From Treponema sp. (GTDB lineage: Bacteria > Spirochaetota > Spirochaetia > Treponematales > Breznakiellaceae): DNA of 48,466 nt. The notes below the pieces were generated by a model that did no database searches, was not told the DNA's origin, and was given only the letters and a program-made list of their open reading frames with translations. Position numbers and translations under genes: made by a program. The stretch is from positions 1 to 48,466 of the forward strand of contig JAITUR010000013.1 in NCBI GenBank assembly GCA_031286205.1. The letters run 5' to 3'. The first letter of the stretch is position 1; every line of letters begins with the position of its first letter. Positions 7,957-38,933 of this stretch are shown one piece after another.

Positions 7957-10900
7957 ATGTTACATATAGGAATAGATGTAGGTTCGACAACTGTTAAAAC
8001 TGTTGTTATTCAACCTGAAACAAAAGAAATTTTATTTTCAAGATACGAACGGCATAATGCCTGCCAGAGCGAAAAAGTATATGAGTTTTTGCAGGAAATA
8101 TTTAAAAAATATCCGCAAGAACAGTTCAGCGCGGCATTTTGCGGTTCCGGCGGCAGAATCATAGCCGATCTTGTTCATGCCCCATATATTCAGGAAGTTG
8201 TCGCAAATTCCATTGCTGTCCGTGCTTTTTATCCGCAGGCAAAAGTAGCGGTAGAATTGGGCGGTCAGGATGCAAAAATAGTTTTCTTTTACAAAGATTC
8301 CGCCTCCGGCCGCTTAATGGCGGGCGATATGCGCATGAACGGAAGCTGCGCGGGCGGAACCGGCGCTTTTATAGACGAGGTAGCGTCTCTTTTGCGAATC
8401 CCTGTAGAAGAGTTCGATGCCCTTGCCGCCAAAGGAACCCAGGTTTATGACATTTCCGGCCGCTGCGGTGTTTTTGCAAAAACCGATATTCAGCCTTTGT
8501 TAAATCAGGGCGGTCTTTTGGAAGATATTGCTCTTTCAACTTTTCATGCTATTGCCAAACAGACAATCGGCGGACTTGCGCAAGGTTTGGAAATTAAACC
8601 GCCCGTCGTATTCGAAGGCGGCCCTCTTACATTTAACCCAACGCTTATAAAAGTATTTCAGGAAAGACTTGCGCTGGAAAACAGCGATATTATTCTGCCG
8701 CCAAAAGCGGAATTGTTTATTGCATACGGAGCCGCGCTGTCCATTAATGAAATGTTTAATAAAGAAATTAAGGACGATAAACAGCCGGCGGACAAAAAAC
8801 AATTTACTCCGGATGCCGTGCTTACTTCGTTATCAATGTACAGAGAAATCGTAAGCGGCAATACCGTAAATGTAAATTTAAACTTTTTTAATAATGATGC
8901 GGAACGCGAAGAATTTACCAATCGTCACAAAATGCCTGTTCTTAAACATGATATTTCATCGCTGGGGCTTAACAAGGGCGATACCCTAAAAGTTTATATG
9001 GGCATAGATGCCGGTTCTACAACAACAAAATTTGTACTAATCGATAAAAACGAAAATGTAGTTGACAGTTTTTACAGCCCCAACAAAGGAGAACCTCTAA
9101 AAGTTATCCGTCAGGCTTTACTGGACATGAACGAAAAATACAAAGAAGCGGGCATTACTCTGGAAGTTATCGCAATGGGTACTACCGGTTACGGCGAACT
9201 TCTTTTCGATAAAGCATTAGGCGCGGATTTCCATACGGTAGAAACAGTAGCGCATGTAGCGGCAGCGCAAAAATATATTCCGGGTGTCAGTTTTATTTTG
9301 GATATTGGCGGCCAGGATATGAAGGCTATCAATATTTCCAACGGAATCGTAACAAATATAACGGTTAACGAAGCTTGTTCGTCGGGCTGCGGATCGTTTT
9401 TGGAAACATTTGCGGAAAACCTAAAAATCCCCGTAGATAAAATTGCAGAAGCCGCGCTTTCCGCAAAAAATCCTGCCCGCCTTGGAAGCAGGTGTACGGT
9501 TTTTATGAACAGTACAATTATTACCGAGCAAAAAAATGGCAAACAGGCAGACGATATAATGGCGGGTTTGTGCCGGTCTATCATAGAAAATGTTTTTACA
9601 AAAGTTGTGCGAATTTCCAACCCCGCGCAGTTGGGCGATAAAATTGTCGTACAGGGCGGAACTCTAAAAAACGATGCCGTCCTGCGCGCATTCGAACAAT
9701 ACCTTGGAAAAAATATAGTCCGTGCTCCCTTCCCCGGAGAAATGGGCGCTATAGGAATAGCGTTATTAACAAAAAGAGAAATCGAAGAAAACGGCTATAC
9801 ATCGCCTCATGGACCCAGCGACAGAACCCGTTTTATGGGGTTCGATAAACTAAAAGAATTCAGTTATACACAGCATCCGAATTTAATTTGTCCGTTCTGC
9901 GCAAATAGTTGCAATCGTACTCTTGTAAAATTTTCCAACGGACTTACATGGGTTACAGGCAACCGATGCGAACGCGGCGAACTTGTAGGAGATGCTCAAG
10001 ATCCCGGCATTAAAGAACAAATAAAAAATATTACAAAGCAAATGAACGCTGTTCCAGATATGATAAAAATACGCGAGGAGCTTTTATTTAAGGATTATGA
10101 TTTTAAGCAGCTTCTTCCGCAAAAAGATATAACAATCGGCTTGCCGCGTGTTTTGGATTTTTGGCGCAATATGCCTTTCTGGAAAGTATTTTGGAATGCG
10201 CTGGGCTTTAAGATAAAAATATCCAAAAAAAGTTCGCGTTATCTTTACGAAAAAGGCTTACAATATGTTGCATCCGATACCGTTTGTTTCCCCGCAAAAT
10301 TGGTTCATGGTCATATTCAGGATTTAATAGAAAGCAAGGTAGACCGTATTTTCTTCCCGCAAATTAACCGCCTGCCTCCCGAGAATCCGGAGCCAACAAG
10401 TACATTTACCTGCCCGGTATTAAAAGGTTATCCGCTTTCCATTAAACATTCGGATAACCCGGAAGAAAAACATAATATTCCTTTGGATTCTCCCATTTGC
10501 CACTGGTTTTCCGAAAGAGATATAGAATACCAGCTTTCAAAATTTATAAAAGATACTTTTAATATCCCTGTAAAAACAACATTGGCGGCAATTAAACAGG
10601 GCAATAAAGCAATGGAAAAATTTAAATCCGAGTTAACGGAACATGGAAAAAAGATTATCAGCGATACGGAAAAAGAAGGCAATTTTGCGGTTGTTATTGC
10701 AGGCCGTCATTATCAATACGATGAACATATAAATCATAATCTTTCGCGTTATTTTACAAGCATAGGTATTCCAGTTTTAACTGTGGATTCTTTGCCGGAT
10801 CTTAAAAAAGTTAAATTAGATAAATCAACAATAGAAATTACAAATAATAATCATGCCAATTTATTGTCATCTGCTATAATTGCTGCAGAACATCCTGCAT

Positions 10901-29217: not shown

Positions 29218-30524
29218 AGTATAAAGATTTGTTAAAAATTGATTATTTATTGCTGTTGCCTGTTCTTATTCTTTTGGTATTGGGAATACTTTATATATAT
29301 TCTTCCGGCATAACCCACGAAGGAAATCTTGTATCCAATGAATATTTAAGACAGATTATCTGGGCTTCTGTAGGTTTAATTGTTTCTTTTATTCTTTCCA
29401 TGGTAAATTACAGAAAATTTTATAATATTGCAATTTATATTTATATTTTTTCTTTAATACCTTTATTATACACAGTTGTTTTTGGAAAAGTTGTTTTTGG
29501 CGCTGCAAGATGGTTAAGAATTGGTATCTTTGGCGGACAGATGTCTGAATTTATAAAGATTACCGTTATTATTTTACTTGCGCGTTTTCTTGCAGATACA
29601 GATCATAACAAAAAAACTTTTTCGCGTTTTATTGCAAGCTGTATAATTGTCGGTATTCCCATGTTTATTGTTCTTTTACAGCCTGACCTTGGAACAGCAA
29701 TGGTTTATTTGGCAATTTTAATTACAATGGTATTTTTATCCGGTGTTTCCATGCGCTATATTACTTTTATGATTGCGTGTATTGCATTAACAGGATTATT
29801 TTTAGTTCTGCCTTTATGGCAGACACATATTTGGAAAAAATCCATGCCTTTTATGGCTCTTCTTACAAGCCCAAGAATATTAACTTTGGTTGTTTTGTTC
29901 TTTGCCGTAATTGCTGCCATAGCCCTTTTTGGATATTTAAAATATAAAAAGAAATATTTTTACTGGATTGTTTATATTCCATCTATACTTATAATTTCTG
30001 TTGTTACATCTTTTGCCGCCCGTTTAATTTTAAAACAATATCAGCTAATGCGGTTAATTGTATTTTTAGATCCCAATGTCGATCCCAGGGGCGCAGGCTG
30101 GAATATTATCCAGTCCATGACAGCAATAGGAGCGGGGGGGCTTACAGGCATGGGCTATTTACAGGGTACTCAAAGCCATTACAGATTTTTACCTGAACAA
30201 AGCACGGATTTTATTTTCTCCATTTATTCCGAAGAAACAGGCTTTCTTGGCGGTCTTTTGATTTTTGCCATGTTTTTATTAATTTGCTTCCGGATTATAA
30301 CAACATTAAAAACTACCGCAGACCCCTTTGGAAAATATATGTGTGCGGGTTTTTTGGCAATGTATAGTTTTCACTTTATTATTAATGTTGGCATGACAAT
30401 GGGTATTATGCCGGTTACAGGACTGCCTTTATTATTCATGTCATATGGAGGTTCGGCAGTTTTAAGCTCTATGATAGGCATTGGACTATTATTAAGTATT
30501 TACATAAGAAGGTTTAATCGTTGA
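29214..30524 (+). CDS. rodA: Rod-shape-determining peptidoglycan glycosyltransferase RodA
   Basis: A 436-residue SEDS protein with about ten membrane spans that polymerises lipid II with PBP2. Typical segments are YIYSSGITHEGN near the start, QPDLGTAMVYLAI (the SEDS Q/L-PDLGTA motif), DPNVDPRGAGWNIIQSMTAIGAGG, QSHYRFLPEQSTDFIFSIYSEETG, and the C-terminal GIMPVTGLPLLFMSYGGSA. A central extra membrane stretch (about residues 215–265) makes it longer than the usual 370–400. Its TGA overlaps the TTG start of the next gene. Confidence 0.95.
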   Translation: MKYKDLLKIDYLLLLPVLILLVLGILYIYSSGITHEGNLVSNEYLRQIIWASVGLIVSFILSMVNYRKFYNIAIYIYIFSLIPLLYTVVFGKVVFGAARWLRIGIFGGQMSEFIKITVIILLARFLADTDHNKKTFSRFIASCIIVGIPMFIVLLQPDLGTAMVYLAILITMVFLSGVSMRYITFMIACIALTGLFLVLPLWQTHIWKKSMPFMALLTSPRILTLVVLFFAVIAAIALFGYLKYKKKYFYWIVYIPSILIISVVTSFAARLILKQYQLMRLIVFLDPNVDPRGAGWNIIQSMTAIGAGGLTGMGYLQGTQSHYRFLPEQSTDFIFSIYSEETGFLGGLLIFAMFLLICFRIITTLKTTADPFGKYMCAGFLAMYSFHFIINVGMTMGIMPVTGLPLLFMSYGGSAVLSSMIGIGLLLSIYIRRFNR

Positions 30525-32938
30525 GATATGTTAATTCCGTTAAAGATTTGGGAGGTCTTTTACTTTCTGTAGGAAAGCCCGGTCGTTATACAGGCGGTGA
30601 ATACGGAATAACCGCAAAAAAAGATGCAGCGCTAAAAACAGTTATTGCTTTTCCCGATCTTTATGAAATTGGAATGGGAAATCAGGCGCTTCGTATTATC
30701 TACAACCGTATAAACGAACTTCCCGATGTTTTGTGCGATCGTGCTTTTGCACCTGCCCCGGATTTTGAAAAACTCTTAAAAGAAAACTCTATTCCCCTTT
30801 ACGGATTAGATACAGGGCTTGCGCTTTGTAATTTTGATATAGTAATGTTTACGATTGGCTACGAGCTGGGGTTAAACGGCGTATTAACAATGTTAAACGC
30901 AGGCAGTATTCCTTTACGCAGTAATGCCAGAGGAAATAATATGCCGGTTGTAATAGCGGGTGGTCCTGTTGTATCTAATCCAATTCCGTTTTCTCCGTTT
31001 ATAGATGCATTTTGGATAGGAGAGGCAGAAGCTGGTTTTTTTGATTTAGTGCAAGAGTTGTCGGAAACTAAAAAAGCAGGGCAGGGGAGTGCTCCTGCAA
31101 GAGAACAGCTGTTAAAAAAAATATCCGCTCATCCCAGCGTATTTGTTAAGGGCAAGGAAAAAACAGTACGCGCCATCCATACCGGATTTTCTGCAGATAT
31201 AAAATCGTCTATATATCCGATACCAAGCATGAAAATTATTCAAAATCATGGAACTGTAGAAATAATGCGCGGATGCCCTAATGGATGTAGATTTTGCCAT
31301 GCCGGTTTTTGGTACAGACCAATGCGGCAGAAAAACCGTGATTTAATAATACAGCAGGCCGAGGATATAGTAAATAAAAGCGGGTGGCAGCAAATAAGTT
31401 TGTCATCATTGTCATCGGGCGATTACTGCGGTGTCTCTGAACTGGTAGAAACACTAAACGGTAAGTTTGCGGACAAACATGTTTCCTTTCAGATGCCGTC
31501 GCTTAAAGTATCCGGATTTTCGCTTGATCTTTTGGAAAAGATTTCTATAACAAGAAAAAGCGGGCTTACATTTGCCGTGGAAACCCCTTTGGATATGCTG
31601 CAGATGGCAATTAACAAAGAAGTTACAAGAGATTCTATTGTTTCTATTTTAGAAGAAGCAAAAAAACGCGGCTGGAAAAGCGCCAAGTTTTATTTTATGA
31701 TAGGGCTGCCTGTTGGCTGTAACCAGGAAAACGAATATTTCGAAGAAAAGGAAATTGTTGATTTTATATTTGATGTAAGCCGAAGAACAAGATTAAAGTT
31801 TAATATAAATGTGGGAGTTTTTATTCCCAAACCGCACACACCTTATCAGCATGCCGCACAGATAGGCGCGGAAGAAGCAAAAGAAAAATTATATTTTATA
31901 AGATCGAAGCTTAAGCCGTTAGGACATAAAGTTAGTACTTCTAATTTGCTTATATCCAAAATAGAGGGGCTCTTAAGCAGGGGAGACGAAAGGGCGGGGT
32001 ATCTTTGCGAAAAAGTTTTTATGGAAGGCAGCCGCTTGGATGCATGGGATGAATATATCAATAAGGAAAAATGGGAAGAACATTTAAATGAAAATATCGA
32101 TTTATTAAACGAAACCTTGTCCGGCAGTATACCGCCTCCCTGGAGCTGCATTGAATCCGGAATAAATATGGAGTATCTGCAAAACGAATTGGAAAAATCA
32201 AATAACTGTCAAAGGACATCTCCATGCGAAGAAATGTGTAAAAAGTGCAGTCTATGTAATAACAGTGTAAAAATTACTAAAAATATGGATTTTACAGATA
32301 TTGCAATATCTACGACTGATAATACCGACAAAAATATCGTTAACCATAACAAAACATCGGTTAACAAAGGTATATTTAGATTAATTTTCAGTTTTAGCAA
32401 GAAAGGAAGTGCGGTTTTTCACGGACATTTAAGCCTGATAGATATTTTTTCCATGTCGTTTAGGCGTGCGGGCATTTCTGTCATGTTTACCCAGGGGTTT
32501 AACCCTTTAGCCAAGATGGAATTTGCGGCTCCTTTGACAACCGGAATAAGCTCAGACTGCGAGATAGCTTTGGTTGATTTTTACGAAGAGCCAAATACCA
32601 AAGTATTTATAGAAAATCTTAATAAAAGCCTTCCTGAAGGAATCTTTGTTAAAGAAGCCGAATATTTTTACATACCGCATGGGACCAAGCATTATTCCTT
32701 GTCGTCGCTTTTATGGGGAGCTGCATATTCGGCTGGCGATAAAATCGACTATATAGAATTTACGCAGGAAAAAAACTACAGGCAAAGTCGTCTGGAAAAA
32801 GATTGCAAAAGTTTGTTCGAATTAAACCGCGCGGATGTTCTTGCTAAAAATATAATTAACAATACAAAAGAATGGGCTTCGTATTTTGATGTTTATAAAC
32901 ACCTATATATTGGTAGACAGAATATACATTATGCTTAG
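30521..32938 (+). CDS. Radical SAM protein fused to DUF2344 domain (TIGR03960/TIGR03936 type)
   Basis: An 805-residue fusion. The first half is a B12-binding-like radical SAM protein with the CxxxCxxC cluster at C252, C256 and C259 (RGCPNGCRFCHAGFWYRP) and the family start MRYVNSVKDLGGLLLSVGKPGRYTGGE (in part). From about residue 625 the DUF2344 domain begins (RLIFSFSKKGSAVFHGHLSL, RRAGISVMFTQGFNP). The reaction is unknown; such genes often lie beside rodA or rng. The start is a TTG overlapping the rodA stop (TTGA). The last codons, …Asn-Ile-His-Tyr-Ala-stop, lie inside the left copy of the prophage repeat, so this gene's 3' end is the attachment site. Confidence 0.88.
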   Translation: MRYVNSVKDLGGLLLSVGKPGRYTGGEYGITAKKDAALKTVIAFPDLYEIGMGNQALRIIYNRINELPDVLCDRAFAPAPDFEKLLKENSIPLYGLDTGLALCNFDIVMFTIGYELGLNGVLTMLNAGSIPLRSNARGNNMPVVIAGGPVVSNPIPFSPFIDAFWIGEAEAGFFDLVQELSETKKAGQGSAPAREQLLKKISAHPSVFVKGKEKTVRAIHTGFSADIKSSIYPIPSMKIIQNHGTVEIMRGCPNGCRFCHAGFWYRPMRQKNRDLIIQQAEDIVNKSGWQQISLSSLSSGDYCGVSELVETLNGKFADKHVSFQMPSLKVSGFSLDLLEKISITRKSGLTFAVETPLDMLQMAINKEVTRDSIVSILEEAKKRGWKSAKFYFMIGLPVGCNQENEYFEEKEIVDFIFDVSRRTRLKFNINVGVFIPKPHTPYQHAAQIGAEEAKEKLYFIRSKLKPLGHKVSTSNLLISKIEGLLSRGDERAGYLCEKVFMEGSRLDAWDEYINKEKWEEHLNENIDLLNETLSGSIPPPWSCIESGINMEYLQNELEKSNNCQRTSPCEEMCKKCSLCNNSVKITKNMDFTDIAISTTDNTDKNIVNHNKTSVNKGIFRLIFSFSKKGSAVFHGHLSLIDIFSMSFRRAGISVMFTQGFNPLAKMEFAAPLTTGISSDCEIALVDFYEEPNTKVFIENLNKSLPEGIFVKEAEYFYIPHGTKHYSLSSLLWGAAYSAGDKIDYIEFTQEKNYRQSRLEKDCKSLFELNRADVLAKNIINNTKEWASYFDVYKHLYIGRQNIHYA

Positions 32939-32944
32939 TAAAAC
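32912..32944 (-). other. Left prophage attachment site (dif-like)
   Basis: The 23 bases 32922–32944 are repeated exactly at 37458–37480. Read on the minus strand, the site contains GCATAATGTATAT, identical to the E. coli dif core. By alignment with dif the XerC-type arm is ACTAAGCATAA (32939–32929), the central region TGTATA (32928–32923) and the XerD-type arm TTCTGTCTACC (32922–32912). The XerD arm is host coding sequence and fits dif poorly. The repeat includes the TAG stop of the radical SAM gene. Confidence 0.75.
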
Positions 32945-32965
32945 TTAATTTACTGCATAAATCCG

Positions 32966-33838
32966 TTATAAACGACCTTTTTTAGTCATTTGCTTTCTAG
33001 CGCTCATTTGCTTTCTTCGACGCTCATTGTCGCTAGCAATCAAATCTAATAATTCATGATCGTTTAACTCTTTGTAATAATCAAGTTTTTCTGATCGACT
33101 TTTTTCAGCGGCTTGTTTAAGATAGAATTCTTCAGGTGAACCTTCTTTAATTAATTTCTTCCAGTAATATCTAGGAAGACCTACGTGTTTACCTTTATTA
33201 GTAAATCCTCTCTCGCTAACCACTGTCTCTATATGCTCCTTCGCATAGTTTAAGCCAATACCTTGACTTTGTAATTGAAATGGCGCCAATTTTCCACTGT
33301 ATTCGGTTTCTGCCATTTCTCCGTTTAATTTTTTTCTTATGTACCCAACTGTGTACTGCACAGCGTCTCTGTCTGCTGAACCAATTGTGTTATTTCCGTA
33401 CAACCACAACTTTTCAATTTCTTTCGAAGCACGCTGTCCGTAAGCAACCTTGTAAGTAGCTTTAGGATCGTGTCGCCAGCCAATAGTGATAATGTGGTAA
33501 TGAGGTCTTTTAGTTTCGCTTTCACCATATTCTCCACTTGCTATAAATTTTATTTTTTGTTTACCAATATATTTTCTCAAACGCTTGATAAACAACTGAA
33601 GATCACGCTTGACAAGCGTTCCCCCTTCAGGCAAATTCTCTTTACTGTAAGTCAATGTTATAAATGATCCTACAGTACCGTGTAATTCGTGCATTACTCG
33701 CAAGGTCCATTCTCCTGTTTGTCTTATGCGGCAAGCCATGCATTTACCGCAATGATAACCGACAATTTTTCTTGGACCGTCATTAAATAAAGTATGTCCT
33801 TCCAAAAGACCGGACCTGAACCTATTAGTACACGACAA
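32966..33838 (-). CDS. Microvirus replication initiation protein VP4
   Basis: A 290-residue rolling-circle initiator. N-terminal cysteines HCGKCMACR (30–36) match the PCGKCxxCR start of VP4; the HUH metal motif is RPHYHIITIG with H113 and H115; the catalytic tyrosine region is QYTVGYIRKK (Y162, Y166, K169). It would nick the double-stranded replicative form to start single-strand synthesis. The start is a TTG at 33838–33836 that directly follows the VP8 stop codon. It is the last gene of the prophage; its stop is 21 bases from the left repeat. Confidence 0.92.
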   Translation of the reverse strand: MSCTNRFRSGLLEGHTLFNDGPRKIVGYHCGKCMACRIRQTGEWTLRVMHELHGTVGSFITLTYSKENLPEGGTLVKRDLQLFIKRLRKYIGKQKIKFIASGEYGESETKRPHYHIITIGWRHDPKATYKVAYGQRASKEIEKLWLYGNNTIGSADRDAVQYTVGYIRKKLNGEMAETEYSGKLAPFQLQSQGIGLNYAKEHIETVVSERGFTNKGKHVGLPRYYWKKLIKEGSPEEFYLKQAAEKSRSEKLDYYKELNDHELLDLIASDNERRRKQMSARKQMTKKGRL

Positions 33839-33952
33839 TTACAACCTGATGCCGCCACGACTTGCATGGTAAGATCGTAAGCGACGTCCACGACGGCGTT
33901 TTAATTTACGTCCGCCACGGAAAGATCTACGTCTTTTTCTGAAATTAATCAC
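33839..33952 (-). CDS. Microvirus small basic DNA-packaging protein VP8
   Basis: A 37-residue, strongly basic peptide beginning VINFRKRRRSFRGG and ending HASRGGIRL. The C-terminal RGGIRL is the hallmark of gokushovirus VP8, which binds the single-stranded genome in the capsid like protein J of phiX174. The start is a GTG at 33952 with AAGGGGG immediately upstream; an in-frame TAA further up excludes a longer form. It lies between orf27 and VP4; its TAA touches the TTG start of VP4. Confidence 0.82.
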   Translation of the reverse strand: MINFRKRRRSFRGGRKLKRRRGRRLRSYHASRGGIRL

Positions 33953-33958
33953 CCCCTT

Positions 33959-34042
33959 TTATTTTTTTGTGAATTGATTCACTATCCAAACAACGAAAAG
34001 AAATGTTGATAAAAGTAATAATAATAATATAATTCCAAACAT
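33959..34042 (-). CDS. 27-residue single-span membrane peptide, candidate lysis protein
   Basis: The peptide MFGIILLLLLLSTFLFVVWI followed by VNQFTKK is one hydrophobic helix of about 20 residues with a polar, basic end. Its ATG shares a base with the VP2 stop codon (TGATG on the minus strand), which gives strong translational coupling, and it ends seven bases before the VP8 start. It resembles no microvirus protein I know. Small membrane peptides are the usual means by which single-stranded DNA and RNA phages lyse cells, and no other lysis gene is visible in this prophage. The function is an inference. Confidence 0.6.
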   Translation of the reverse strand: MFGIILLLLLLSTFLFVVWIVNQFTKK

Positions 34043-34833
34043 CATCTTTTTTGCTCCAAAGCTTGCATTAAATAATTAAGATAATAATCAGCTTCGGGAT
34101 CACCTCTTTGAATCATAACAAGAGCTTTTTCAAGCGTAGCTGATAACTTACCGAAATCAATACCAGCAATTCTTACATCACCACTATTCTCCATGTGGTA
34201 AGCACCGGTACGAACATTTTCCAGCCTATTTCTAATATCCCAGGCTTGATCAAGCTGCCTTCGTTGAGTTTGAGACATTGTCTCCTTTTCTTGTGCTTGC
34301 ATATTTTTTATACGCTGATCTATTTCTTGCATTTGTTTAGTATGCACATCTTGGAAAACATTATTCTGTTGCCTTTGCCATTCAGTAGTCGCTCTTATTC
34401 TTTCAGCATCTGCCATTGTATGGTGTATGTCTGCTTTCTGCTTCATAAGCTCCATCGCGGCGTAATTCATTTGTAATTTATGAGCCATTTTTTGCTCGTT
34501 GGTTTCTCTCATGCCTTGTGTATTTGGCGCTGTAGTGGGCACGTGGGAGCCTGCACCTGCCGCAGAGCCTGCGGCTAATACTGGGCTCAAACCTGCTTTT
34601 TTTAAGTCAGCTACTCTACGTTCAACGGCATTATCTTCACGGTCAAATATAGCTTGCTGTATTTTTTTGTCATAATCCCATTTTTGGACTTGGAAATCAT
34701 GATCACGTCTAGCCAAGTCCATATTCTCCTGAAACATACGTTCATTCTGCATTCTATCCTGATTCTGATTATACTGATTCATACCTTGCTGTAAAAAATT
34801 ATCAGCGAAATTTGCCATAGTTAACAAATCCAT
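34042..34833 (-). CDS. Microvirus minor capsid / DNA pilot protein VP2
   Basis: A 263-residue protein with long amphipathic helices rich in Q, N and M, and the VP2 signature RRVADLKKAGLSPVLAAGSAAGAG (about residues 72–95; in part KKAGLSPVLAAGSAAGAG). VP2 is thought to act like pilot protein H of phiX174 and guide DNA into the cell. GGAG lies seven bases before the ATG. The stop codon overlaps the start of the 27-residue membrane peptide. Confidence 0.9.
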   Translation of the reverse strand: MDLLTMANFADNFLQQGMNQYNQNQDRMQNERMFQENMDLARRDHDFQVQKWDYDKKIQQAIFDREDNAVERRVADLKKAGLSPVLAAGSAAGAGSHVPTTAPNTQGMRETNEQKMAHKLQMNYAAMELMKQKADIHHTMADAERIRATTEWQRQQNNVFQDVHTKQMQEIDQRIKNMQAQEKETMSQTQRRQLDQAWDIRNRLENVRTGAYHMENSGDVRIAGIDFGKLSATLEKALVMIQRGDPEADYYLNYLMQALEQKR

Positions 34834-34853
34834 TTAATCTCCTTTGGTGTCAA

Positions 34854-34891
34854 CGGGCTATATTACCATCAAGTACAGATCATATAGCCCG
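34854..34891. other. Hairpin between orf56 and VP2
   Basis: CGGGCTATAT (34854–34863) and ATATAGCCCG (34882–34891) form a perfect 10-bp stem with an 18-base loop. A T-run (34895–34900) follows on the plus strand, so it looks like an intrinsic terminator in the plus direction, opposite to the prophage genes. In the minus direction it lies in the VP2 leader. A second perfect palindrome, GGGAGCCGGACCGGCTCCC, lies at 34923–34941 inside the end of orf56. Confidence 0.6.
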
Positions 34892-34909
34892 CCGTTTTTT
34901 CACACCTTT

Positions 34910-35080
34910 TTAGTCTTTGTAAGGGAGCCGGACCGGCTCCCTGTTAATAGTTTTTGGACTCCGCAGAGAAGCCAAAAATTCCCTCTTTCTCTGAAGCCAG
35001 GCTTCATATTCTAGCTCATCTTTCCTAAGTTTGCGCTCATACCATTCCAGAACATCAACCTTATCACTGTTCTGGCTCAC
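34910..35080 (-). CDS. Small charged prophage protein (orf56), function unknown
   Basis: A 56-residue protein, mostly one charged helix: VDVLEWYERKLRKDELEYEA, then WLQRKREFLASLRSPK. The GTG start at 35080 has GGAG ten bases upstream and overlaps the end of the VP3-like gene by 17 bases. Its 3' end contains a perfect GC-rich palindrome. No relative is recognised. The overlap, the ribosome binding site and the filling of an otherwise empty 230-base gap argue that it is real. Confidence 0.5.
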   Translation of the reverse strand: MSQNSDKVDVLEWYERKLRKDELEYEAWLQRKREFLASLRSPKTINREPVRLPYKD

Positions 35081-35444
35081 TTGTCAACTCCTTTTTTACA
35101 GGCTCTGGTTCGGTCGTAGAGGGGGCTGTATTCGCTTCAGATGGGGGTTCGGGTATCTTTCGTTCATTTTGCGCTCTGTAACGCAATACAGACACCCTGT
35201 CAGCTAAATCTACGGGATCAAGCTCGTAAATATCAGCGGCATCCTCAACCTCTTCGTCAAATTCACCTTCGATAGTGTCCAGAAGACCATGTCGATAAGC
35301 TTCAAGCCGCTTTCCAGCGGCTTGCATAGATTCGACAATTTCCTTTGTGGTTTGATAACCTGTTTGTTCCGTGATGAGAATATTGGACATCTTCACACCA
35401 TCGGTCGGCTTATAATTATACCGCGTATTAAATTTTGTAGACAT
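35064..35444 (-). CDS. Probable microvirus internal scaffolding protein VP3
   Basis: A 126-residue acidic protein without membrane segments. It begins MSTKFNTRYNYKPTDGVKMS, similar in style to VP3 proteins with a basic N-terminus, and has helical, acidic middle (LDTIEGEFDEEVEDAADIYE) and a proline-rich acidic tail (PEPPSEANTAPSTTEPEPVKK). Size and charge fit the scaffold that assembles VP1 into procapsids. In most gokushoviruses VP3 lies before VP1; here it follows it, nine bases after the VP1 stop, with AAGGAG as ribosome binding site. The call is by position and type. Confidence 0.6.
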   Translation of the reverse strand: MSTKFNTRYNYKPTDGVKMSNILITEQTGYQTTKEIVESMQAAGKRLEAYRHGLLDTIEGEFDEEVEDAADIYELDPVDLADRVSVLRYRAQNERKIPEPPSEANTAPSTTEPEPVKKELTSEPEQ

Positions 35445-35452
35445 AAAACTCC

Positions 35453-37123
35453 TTAATTATGGTCAATAAGACCGGGTTCAGCCATGAAAGGCATAGGTCT
35501 GGTAACGTGGCATTTATTACCAAATGATATTAAGAACATGGGGTCAACATGAGAAGCTAAAGGACGCTTCATAGCAAATCGTTCTGCTTCGTTAGGTGCA
35601 ACTAAATCAGCATTAAGCGTAGGCGCTGATGAAAACTTACGGGCTAATTGCCAGTACTCAAATTCATCTCTGAACATTCCGTGGACCGTATTACGCTTAA
35701 ACCGATACTCGTCATACCTACCTTGATAGCCAATCACACGATCAACCAAATCAGGGGCAAAGTTGTAGAGCTCCTCAAAGTAGACAGCTTGCTCCGATAA
35801 GTTAGCAAACACAGGAAAGTAATGATCATACTTACTATCCTTAAGCCAAACACGATCAATTCCTTGTTGGTACATAGTCCGAGGCATTATAGACATCAAG
35901 CCCATAATCAAACCGGGTTCTTGGACCCGATAACTCGAAATATAATTGCTGTCAGCACTTATTCCATGACCTGCCATATTACCTTGTGGGGAAACCTGAT
36001 CACTTGAAGAAGTTTGAAGAACCTCTGAAATGACAAGAGGAGTTTTTGAGCCACCAATATACTCCGGACGTTGCAGTCTATCATCTCTAGGATTAGCATT
36101 AAATTGACCCTTTAAGAATTCAACGTAGCGGGATCCTGTACGAGCAGATCTTTCCATAAAGCGTTGAAGCTGGAATAAAAATCTTAATTCAGAAACATCA
36201 AATGTAGATACATTATCCAAGCTAACTTGATTTTTATTCAAGGCACCCCTTAGAGTTCCAATACTTTCGGGAAGATATGTTGGTCCACCTGCCCTAAAAC
36301 CATAACTTACTTCCGAAGTTCCAAAAGATACTCTTTGTGCGACATCAACGGCGGAGGTAGTTTCTAATTGTTCTGAATGTGGAGGGAGAGAAAAAACAGA
36401 ATCATAAAAATCTGCAAATGTATCACCATGTAAACCTATAGAAACAGGCTCGCCTCTCTGTTGCCAGGGCAACATAGATGTAAAATAATCCTTCTCCCAA
36501 CACCTAACTCTAAGACCAGCATTCTTGCCAGCACCTACTAAGGTACCATCAACCTCAATTCCTTCGTCAGGGGAACGCATATCACGCAAACCTACTTCAT
36601 CCATAATATTTGGATCGCGATAATATTCATTCCAAATCAAATTGTAGGCATACAAAGGAAAAGCTAAAGGCATCTTTACAATATCATGATACGTCTGTGA
36701 ACCACTGATAGTATTAAAACCAAAGTAATCCCAAAGAGATCCAGATCTAAAGTAATCATCTATATTTCCAGTAAACCATGAAGGATCTATCCTTGGCATA
36801 TCAGCTACAAATTTACCATCTTGTCCACCAGTAAAGAAGTTTTCCCATTGCTCCCACAACAAACGATACGGAACAAAATAGTAATGCGTAAAAATGTTTA
36901 TCTCGTGCATCAGCGGACACATGACCGGGTTCATACGCAAAACCATGCTATTCGCTATCTGCCAAAAATCTCCTGCAATACAATCATCAAGAAGGATTGG
37001 ATACAGGAAAAACATTTCGGCGGATAACCTTTTTTCGTGGGATAAATTGAATTTATTTCTTGGAACTCTTGGACGCTTAACGGTCTTAAATTGTCGACCT
37101 CTTTTAGCTTGGCGTTCACTCAT
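35453..37123 (-). CDS. Microvirus major capsid protein VP1 (F protein)
   Basis: A 556-residue single-jelly-roll capsid protein. The family start PRNKFNLSHEKRLSAEMFFL, the INIFTHYYFVPYRLLWEQWENF segment and the C-terminal HVTRPMPFMAEPGLIDH are typical of Gokushovirinae and related microviruses. The ATG at 37123 is preferred to a TTG at 37135; GAGG lies five bases upstream. The start overlaps the last codons of VP5. Internal insertions relative to phiX174 F are expected for gokushovirus spikes, and the region around residues 210–300 is the likely one. Confidence 0.94.
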   Translation of the reverse strand: MSERQAKRGRQFKTVKRPRVPRNKFNLSHEKRLSAEMFFLYPILLDDCIAGDFWQIANSMVLRMNPVMCPLMHEINIFTHYYFVPYRLLWEQWENFFTGGQDGKFVADMPRIDPSWFTGNIDDYFRSGSLWDYFGFNTISGSQTYHDIVKMPLAFPLYAYNLIWNEYYRDPNIMDEVGLRDMRSPDEGIEVDGTLVGAGKNAGLRVRCWEKDYFTSMLPWQQRGEPVSIGLHGDTFADFYDSVFSLPPHSEQLETTSAVDVAQRVSFGTSEVSYGFRAGGPTYLPESIGTLRGALNKNQVSLDNVSTFDVSELRFLFQLQRFMERSARTGSRYVEFLKGQFNANPRDDRLQRPEYIGGSKTPLVISEVLQTSSSDQVSPQGNMAGHGISADSNYISSYRVQEPGLIMGLMSIMPRTMYQQGIDRVWLKDSKYDHYFPVFANLSEQAVYFEELYNFAPDLVDRVIGYQGRYDEYRFKRNTVHGMFRDEFEYWQLARKFSSAPTLNADLVAPNEAERFAMKRPLASHVDPMFLISFGNKCHVTRPMPFMAEPGLIDHN

Positions 37124-37370
37124 TAGTAACCTCAACTTGCTCTAATTCAGAGATCATAACTCTGCGGGCTTTTTCCAAGCCCATTATAGATATTTGCTCC
37201 GTATCAAAGCCACCGAGGCAATAAAGCCAGAAATCCGTAGGGGTAATGCTCTTATCCCTGTCCATGCTTGCTAAAAATATTCTAATAGCAGAACCGTCAG
37301 TCCTTGCACAAAACAGGGGAGCGCACTCCTCTGCAACCCTATCATAAACCGTGTAAATTTTAGTTTTCAT
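37116..37370 (-). CDS. Microvirus non-structural protein VP5
   Basis: An 84-residue protein. KIYTVYDRVAEECAPLFCAR, then DGSAIRIFLASMDRD and DFWLYCLGGFDTEQISI, match the non-structural VP5/ORF5 family of gokushoviruses (pattern LYDxxA…PF…AIR-F…DF-LY-IG-FD). It is thought to help switch from double- to single-strand DNA synthesis. It is the first gene of the prophage; AAGGA lies eight bases before the ATG, and TATTAT further up may be the -10 box. Its end overlaps the VP1 start by eight bases. Confidence 0.85.
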   Translation of the reverse strand: MKTKIYTVYDRVAEECAPLFCARTDGSAIRIFLASMDRDKSITPTDFWLYCLGGFDTEQISIMGLEKARRVMISELEQVEVTNE

Positions 37371-37418
37371 TATTTAATCCTTGTATAATATCAACACGCT
37401 AACGCGCTACGCTTGTTA

Positions 37419-37444
37419 ACCTAACGGGATAAATCCCGTTAGGT
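37419..37444. other. Perfect hairpin between VP5 promoter region and right attachment site
   Basis: ACCTAACGGGA (37419–37429) pairs perfectly with TCCCGTTAGGT (37434–37444) around a four-base loop TAAA. There is no T-run on either side, so it is not an ordinary terminator. It lies 13 bases inside the right repeat, in the only non-coding stretch of the prophage apart from the VP2 leader, so a role as replication origin, packaging signal or accessory recombination site is possible. Confidence 0.65.
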
Positions 37445-37447
37445 GTA

Positions 37448-37480
37448 AAGCGACAACATATACATTATGCTTAGTAAAAC
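37448..37480 (-). other. Right prophage attachment site (dif-like)
   Basis: Bases 37458–37480 repeat 32922–32944 exactly. On the minus strand the XerC-type arm is ACTAAGCATAA (37475–37465), the central region TGTATA (37464–37459), and the XerD-type arm TGTTGTCGCTT (37458–37448) is prophage DNA that differs from the left site. Host DNA starts at 37481; the 41 bases to the next gene (37481–37521) are AT-rich. Confidence 0.75.
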
Positions 37481-37521: not shown

Positions 37522-38256
37522 TTATGACCTCAGTAAGAATACCCCAAGGTGTGTGGGTTTACTGAAAATAGGATTAAAGCTGGTTGGGTTTGTCCCTGAT
37601 GTTAATATAAACATGGATACATAAGCATAAAGGGCTGTACCGGTCGATTCTAAAGCGGCTACGTCATGATTATAGACATTCCCCTTGCCTGCGTTTTCGT
37701 TGCTTCTTAATTCATCGGAGCTAAGAAAATCGGCATTGGGGCTGTGTTCAAAACTGTCATTTCGAAGAATATTGCCCTGCGAAACATTATCCATAAGTAT
37801 TTCGGCAGGCTCTGCCGGATTAAATATTATTTCCATATTTCTGGAAGGCGTAGTTCCGGGGGTAACTCTAAGGAGATTACTTGTCTGAAATTGCAGTTCA
37901 TAATAACCGCGGTCGAAAAAATCACTGCGGGCAGGTATGCTTGTAGTTGTACTGTCTACAAATCTCCTAAGATTATTCCAGTCATTAACCAGGTGTGTGC
38001 TAATATCGTTAAATAAACTTATATTTATGGTGGTTTCATGAATTGCATTGCTTAAATAAATTTTATAGAATATTACATAACTAGAAGCATAATAAAAGTT
38101 TGACGATATAGAAGGAAGCATTATTTTAACGCCTGTGGCACTCTCAGTACCCTGTGAAATCTGCGGAAGATAAAAATATTCGTCTATACCGCAGGTTGTA
38201 AAACCAAGAAAAACCGGCAATATTATAAATAATAAAAACGGTTTTCTAAGCCCCAT
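37522..38256 (-). CDS. Spirochaetal lipoprotein of unknown function
   Basis: A 244-residue protein with a lipoprotein signal, MGLRKPFLLFIILPVFLGFTTC, the acylated cysteine being at about residue 22. The ATG at 38256 is chosen because it shares a base with the stop codon of the upstream TPR gene (TAATG) and places the signal peptide at the N-terminus; the longer frame to 38313 would bury it. The mature part has no motif I recognise. It is probably anchored in an envelope membrane and cotranscribed with the TPR gene. Confidence 0.75.
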   Translation of the reverse strand: MGLRKPFLLFIILPVFLGFTTCGIDEYFYLPQISQGTESATGVKIMLPSISSNFYYASSYVIFYKIYLSNAIHETTINISLFNDISTHLVNDWNNLRRFVDSTTTSIPARSDFFDRGYYELQFQTSNLLRVTPGTTPSRNMEIIFNPAEPAEILMDNVSQGNILRNDSFEHSPNADFLSSDELRSNENAGKGNVYNHDVAALESTGTALYAYVSMFILTSGTNPTSFNPIFSKPTHLGVFLLRS

Positions 38257-38933
38257 TATTGAACCTCTTCTACTTCTATTCTTAAAATTGCGCTTCTTGC
38301 AAGATCCGGCCAAACCGGAATATTCTGCCAGTTAGTTAATACTTCCCGGTATGCGGCAAGCGCAGCCTGATTATCCCCAAGCTGTTCATTTAGTCTTCCA
38401 ATATTAAATTGAGCGCGCGGAGCCGCAGGAAATTCAAAGGAATGTTCGACGCTTTTTTGTAAAAATTCAATAGCCTGCTCTATCTTGCCCTGTTCTTCGG
38501 CGGCTGCCGCTACATTAAAAAGCGCTATAGGGGCAAGGTATGTTTTATTTCCTTTTTGCGATGCTTTTAACCAGGATTCTTCGCAAGCCGCCCAGTCTTC
38601 CCTGCTCGAATAAATTCTTCCGGCGTACGAAAATGCCCTGCCTGCCGCAATCCCAAAATTATTTTTTCCAAAAGCTTCCAGTTCTTCCAGAAGTGTATTT
38701 ACTTCATCCGTATAATTTTCGTCGTTAATGTTAAAACGCAAATCGTCAAAACGGACTGCCAATAATTCAATTTGTTCAATTGCTTTTTTATTTAAAACAT
38801 CATATACGGAAATAAGTGCAATAGCACCTATGGCAAGAGCTATAAGCACTGCTCCGAAAATAAAAACGCCTTTTCTGTTTTTTTCTATAAACTCAAGAAA
38901 AGTAACTTTTTCGATCTTTTCATTTTTTTTCAT
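38256..38933 (-). CDS. Membrane-anchored TPR protein
   Basis: A 225-residue protein with one membrane span at about residues 21–45 (GVFIFGAVLIALAIGAIALIS) and TPR-like repeats in the rest (ALFNVAAAAEEQGKIEQAIEFLQKSVE; in part AAAEEQGKIEQAIEFLQKS; then FNIGRLNEQLGDNQAALAAY). AAGGAG lies before the ATG. The start overlaps the end of the sigma-54 activator gene by 14 bases and the end overlaps the lipoprotein start, so these genes form one coupled unit with rpsA. Confidence 0.8.
   Translation of the reverse strand: MKKNEKIEKVTFLEFIEKNRKGVFIFGAVLIALAIGAIALISVYDVLNKKAIEQIELLAVRFDDLRFNINDENYTDEVNTLLEELEAFGKNNFGIAAGRAFSYAGRIYSSREDWAACEESWLKASQKGNKTYLAPIALFNVAAAAEEQGKIEQAIEFLQKSVEHSFEFPAAPRAQFNIGRLNEQLGDNQAALAAYREVLTNWQNIPVWPDLARSAILRIEVEEVQ

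Follow-up and report, generated by a model that had tools for sequence, protein, structure and literature searches.

A gokushovirus prophage at the dif site of an uncultured Treponema-like spirochaete

Most gokushoviruses have no known host. A stretch of 48,466 nucleotides (hereafter, the window), which is the entire contig C41 of a MAG (2.34 Mb, 94% complete, 126 contigs), carries a complete gokushovirus gene set between genes of a bacterial chromosome. Such a locus raises three questions: whether the phage is really integrated at this position, by which route it could have entered the chromosome, and whether this is an isolated case.

Prophage genes and the host chromosome

The prophage occupies positions 32922-37457 (4536 bp), all its genes lying on the minus strand in the order VP5, VP1, VP3, VP2, VP8, VP4, as six uninterrupted open reading frames free of frameshifts and stops. 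A repeat search yielded a perfect 23-bp direct repeat, ATATACATTATGCTTAGTAAAAC, whose left (32922-32944) and right (37458-37480) copies are spaced by 4536 bp; when the whole genome assembly was searched, the att pattern was absent elsewhere.

VP5 (37116-37370, 84 aa), a non-structural DNA-binding protein, matches Pfam Phage_ORF5 (8.9e-15) and phrog_1670, and VP1 (35453-37123, 556 aa), the major capsid protein (MCP), matches Pfam Phage_F (1.8e-93) and phrog_514 (1.2e-139), its start being most likely the in-frame ATG at 37123 rather than the upstream TTG at 37135. The internal scaffolding-type protein VP3 (35064-35444, 126 aa) was assigned by homologues at the equivalent position (best 1.4e-17), the profile search matching it to no PHROG or Pfam family, and the DNA pilot protein VP2 (34042-34833, 263 aa) by the pilot-protein family phrog_8693 (3.9e-8) and by homologues. 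VP8 (33839-33952, 37 aa), a small basic DNA-binding protein with the C-terminus SRGGIRL, has homologues at the equivalent position in nine relatives. The rolling-circle replication initiator VP4 (32966-33838, 290 aa) matches phrog_942 (1.7e-72), REP_ORF2-G2P and Pfam PF23343; its sequence reads the HUH-type motif RPHYHI plus YTVGYIRKK, and its homologues are present in all relatives compared.

The element hence combines an F/VP1-family single jelly-roll MCP and an HUH-type initiator, as in Microviridae, with VP2, VP3, VP5, VP8 and a genome within the gokushovirus range of about 4.2-5 kb. The 4536 bp leave no further large reading frame for a spike protein, and neither the ORF list nor the PHROG and Pfam searches revealed a recombinase or integrase among the prophage proteins. 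The preliminary description, which had proposed a full gokushovirus-like gene set within a 23-bp repeat, is thus borne out by the six reading frames, the family matches and the repeat copies, found where it had placed them. Its claim of a microvirus prophage with no visible decay is also supported as far as the sequence goes, "intact" meaning intact reading frames only.

Between VP2 and VP8, and overlapping the VP2 stop codon, the minus strand also encodes a 28-aa peptide with a single predicted membrane span (33959-34045), a candidate lysis or membrane protein. A phmmer comparison of this peptide with the relatives gave nothing significant, and a scan of short membrane ORFs for a lysis gene was too noisy to back any one of them. 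Peptides akin to it follow VP2 in bajarodmic virus 192 (L258:2997-3098) and in the genome G151 (L025:10907-11026). Membrane-type ORFs embedded in VP4 in another frame were seen near a conserved GEYG motif in three sequences (L022, about 10058-10192; L257:3581-3730; L259:3477-3608), sometimes preceded by a good ribosome-binding site.

Both flanks are chromosomal, with mrdA, rodA and a TIGR03960 gene on the left and a lipoprotein-like gene, a TPR-like gene, a sigma-54 activator and rpsA on the right. The adjacent genes are the TIGR03960 radical-SAM gene (30521-32938, plus strand; NCBIfam TIGR03960, above the cut-off) and, on the far side of dif, the lipoprotein-like gene (37522-38313, minus strand). 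As the TAG stop of the former (32936-32938) falls inside the shared att core, this gene is left unchanged by the integration. The genome is congeneric with the MAGs Treponema sp. Emb289P3bin117 and Co191P1bin8, and its relatives are syntenic; by its sequence, the host is an uncultured Treponema-like bacterium, a Treponematales MAG, and the earlier placement of the phage in a spirochaete chromosome is upheld.

The repeat as a dif site at the replication terminus

The dif site is the spot where the Xer enzymes of the cell separate the daughter chromosomes. The left attachment site, attL (32912-32939, plus strand), has the structure of a complete host-type dif, GGTAGACAGAA-TATACA-TTATGCTTAGT, comprising a XerD arm (32912-32922), the centre TATACA (32923-32928) and a XerC arm (32929-32939), the arms being assigned by analogy with the dif consensus; it resembles the E. 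coli dif in both the centre and the arms. The right site, attR (37448-37475, plus strand), is a hybrid, in which the same centre and XerC arm TTATGCTTAGT are combined with a phage-derived XerD arm, AAGCGACAACA. The weight-matrix score of attL is 47.2, empty sites in relatives (n = 17) ranging from 38 to 52, and that of attR is 23.3, the low value being due to the phage-derived arm.

In about 15 members of the genus, the site is empty, that is, present in one copy, and strongly conserved beside the TIGR03960 gene, and an empty site is also seen in members of a different family of the order. Over the 17 sites, a core of roughly 28 bp hardly varies, in contrast to the random DNA on both sides. 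GC skew changes from +0.119 to -0.095 across the site, with the cumulative maximum within the window at 32891, and the genes converge on it, those on the left pointing right and those on the right pointing left. Such a skew flip and converging gene direction are marks of a replication terminus. An equivalent flip was observed in five congeners, but the skew of the genomes G040 and G043, which belong to another family, did not flip in the way seen in the window. Judging by these sequence features, the 23-bp repeat forms the core of a Xer/dif site, and this site lies at the terminus of replication. Here the preliminary description had the repeat and the bounds right and missed their Xer/dif nature. 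Integration at a tRNA gene was ruled out, the window containing no tRNA.

The host has genes for two Xer-like proteins, the XerD-like one adjoining an ftsZ-like gene and the XerC-like one flanked by topA-like and hslU-like genes (the neighbours named by reading translations); both proteins exceed the Xer subfamily cut-off NF001399 and are slightly below the NCBIfam XerC/XerD equivalog cut-offs. An insertion exactly at the chromosomal dif, no integrase of its own and the presence of host XerC and XerD are the features of a Xer/dif-integrating element (IMEX).

We consider it very probable that this is an integrated temperate gokushovirus, and that the host XerC and XerD recombine its dif-like attP with the terminus dif. 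The circular double-stranded replicative form would bear the attP between VP4 and VP5, and the two enzymes would recombine it with the chromosomal dif inside the 6-bp centre, so that one flank would receive a complete host-type dif and the other a hybrid site. As the recombination would be carried out by host proteins, a phage integrase would not be needed, and since a complete dif and a hybrid site would be left, the chromosome would retain a usable dif and the same enzymes could excise the phage. Three observations speak against this reading: the spirochaete hosts are MAGs, the gokushovirus genes of G006 are placed away from dif, and the XerC and XerD hits score slightly below the equivalog cut-offs.

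That Xer recombines the sites, that the reaction is reversible and that virions are produced is inferred by analogy with E. coli gokushoviruses, in which integration is lost on removal of XerC, of XerD or of one or the other half of the phage dif, and whose reversibly integrated prophages have one canonical flanking dif and another with a variable XerD arm (PMC7062461). The att pair of the window matches this pattern, attL being canonical-like and the XerD arm of attR divergent. The enterobacterial prophages of the EC6098 type are also similar in being 4.3-4.7 kb long, integrase-free and located at dif, with the canonical site on one side and the variable XerD arm on the other, whereas the present host is a spirochaete and the present phage is known from sequence alone (PMC7062461). 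The BMV/Alpavirinae proviruses of Bacteroidetes are likewise integrase-free Microviridae with dif-like sites, but belong to another group of the family, are larger (BMV1, 6.3 kb) and have hosts of another phylum (PMC3091885). The filamentous phages CTXphi and VGJphi similarly hijack the host XerC/XerD at dif; they are, however, Inoviridae with unrelated particles and genes.

Gokushoviruses at the same locus and free relatives

Scanning 394 genomes of the order, we observed gokushovirus capsids in the genome of the window and in four others, and the family and phylum scans contributed one more (G597). The locus is shared by gokushoviruses of G035, G066, G151, the IMG/VR contig L275 and probably G597, with MCP identity of 39-47%. 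In G035 (Treponema sp. Emb289P3bin117), a different gokushovirus (47% MCP identity) lies between the same two genes, flanked by a 36-bp repeat. In G066 (Spirochaetaceae Nm470_bin66), the phage adjoins the TIGR03960 gene and has dif at each end; in G151, a MAG named Treponema brennaborense, it adjoins the rodA/ftsW-type gene and has a dif repeat, and in L275, also with a dif repeat, it adjoins a lipoprotein-like gene (29% identity, 4e-18). Counterparts of the lipoprotein-like gene of the window thus border the prophages of G035 and L275. The gokushovirus genes of G597, which represents a different family of the class, come after rpsA and genes for a TPR-like and a lipoprotein-like protein, so that the phage is probably at the equivalent locus; the contig ends within it, and a search for a viral relative of its capsid found none. 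The exception is G006, where the gokushovirus (L024:5400-10100) lies beside rplM/rpsI-like genes, the dif of the genome is empty, and an examination for att repeats gave none convincing.

The G035 repeat (L022:6205-6240 and 10679-10714) extends about 16 bp past dif into a phage hairpin; hence the sequence common to the phage and the chromosome exceeds dif, which may be a record of an earlier exchange. Gokushovirus-like capsid genes were also seen in an Endomicrobium MAG and a Chitinispirillia MAG (L042, L045).

The closest capsids among annotated phages are those of free faecal microviruses, the best being bajarodmic virus 263 (55.7% MCP identity). A quick unrooted tree of 56 MCPs pairs the window phage with bajarodmic virus 192 (SH-aLRT 98) and splits the five spirochaete capsids among more than one group; the sole named gokushovirus in this tree is phiMH2K, on a long branch, SpV4 not being included. 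Bajarodmic viruses 263 and 192 and Tortoise microvirus 24 have the closest MCPs and the same gene set as the window phage, but are known only as free circular faecal genomes. The dif-like site of bajarodmic virus 192 (score 20.7; best shuffle, 14.6) is situated after VP2, whereas that of the window phage is between VP4 and VP5. An attP-like sequence between VP4 and VP5 was also found in the IMG/VR contig L151, circular by a 123-bp terminal repeat; the sequence scores 15.6, near the highest shuffled value, and so is identified by where it lies and what it resembles.

The 19-mer GTAGACAGAATATACATTA has a single match among 2.9 million IMG/VR contigs, the gokushovirus L075, which carries it at both ends. 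Its terminal repeat being only 22 bp long, L075 may represent either a free circular genome or an integrated phage cut off by the assembly at both att sites. An exact search of IMG/VR with GTAGACAGAATATACATTAT gave no matches, and the same sequence shortened by one base matched only the one gokushovirus contig with the site at either end. GTAGACAGAANNNNCATTAT occurs in 14 contigs, one of which is the gokushovirus prophage L275. The 59 contigs with ATACATTATNNNTAGTAAAA were read as mostly chance matches, and no MCP was found in the eight that were screened. Two further contigs with GTAGACAGAANNNNCATTAT (L264:6786-6805 and L273:1779-1798) have a sequence that looks like a spirochaete dif and no microvirus capsid, L264 having phage-like genes.

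Alternative explanations and the host range of gokushoviruses

Gene content, exact ends, the identity and position of dif, recurrence of the locus and the host Xer-like proteins are direct observations, against which other explanations can be weighed. If the assembly had joined a free circular microvirus present in the sample to the spirochaete contig at a shared dif-like sequence, the prophage would be an artefact. The genome is indeed a MAG of 126 contigs, and a published survey cautions about such joins for Spirochaetes (PMC9239249). Yet at least four further assemblies have a different gokushovirus, independently inserted, at the orthologous locus, making a chance join very unlikely; in G035, G066 and G151 host genes flank the phage on both sides within one contig, the 23-bp repeat is below most assembler k-mers, and the phage ends coincide exactly with a recombination target. 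We thus regard an artefact as highly improbable. The slightest chance of all is given to another route, such as an integrase acting in trans or recombination at chance homology, with dif being coincidental. Four other Phage_integrase proteins are encoded in the MAG, and the G006 phage genes sit away from dif, but the ends match the 6-bp centre and an arm of dif in the window, G035, G066, G151 and L275, GC skew flips at the site, and the use of dif by gokushoviruses has already been proven elsewhere.

It is also conceivable, albeit unlikely, that the phage did integrate and has since lost excision or virion production, as the weak XerD arm of attR might suggest. Against such a remnant, all its reading frames are complete, with lengths near those of free relatives, and the E. 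coli gokushovirus prophages, one of them proven functional, likewise vary in the phage-side XerD arm (PMC7062461).

Xer-mediated integration of a temperate gokushovirus being the preferred reading, its novelty lies in the host. Microviridae integrating at dif were already known in Bacteroidetes (PMC3091885) and enterobacteria (PMC7062461), and the spirochaetes join them as a new, well-supported host phylum. A survey of microviruses from 2022 reported an association with Spirochaetes and doubted it, as it relied on a single contig in a fragmented, error-prone MAG (PMC9239249); the window and its parallels largely remove this doubt as regards integration. In the literature outside most subscription journals and bioRxiv preprints, we found no paper describing a spirochaete microvirus prophage, so that the earlier suggestion that none had been described in a treponeme holds within that literature, although the survey had listed the doubted link.

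At least four other spirochaete-type sequences carry a gokushovirus at the equivalent position, so spirochaetes can host these phages for life. It seems reasonably likely, on balance, that they harbor a guild of temperate gokushoviruses, whose separate lineages each gained a spirochaete dif (placed between VP4 and VP5, VP2 and VP8, or VP3 and VP2) and repeatedly re-entered the terminus locus, and that a dif-like attP can assign some host-unknown faecal microviruses to spirochaetes. Repeated insertion at one orthologous dif locus in at least three spirochaete families, including the probable case of G597, is direct host evidence; the short sequence GTAGACAGAATATACATTAT and its variants can be used to link free microviruses to spirochaete hosts, and Xer-based lysogeny of single-stranded DNA phages is extended to another phylum.
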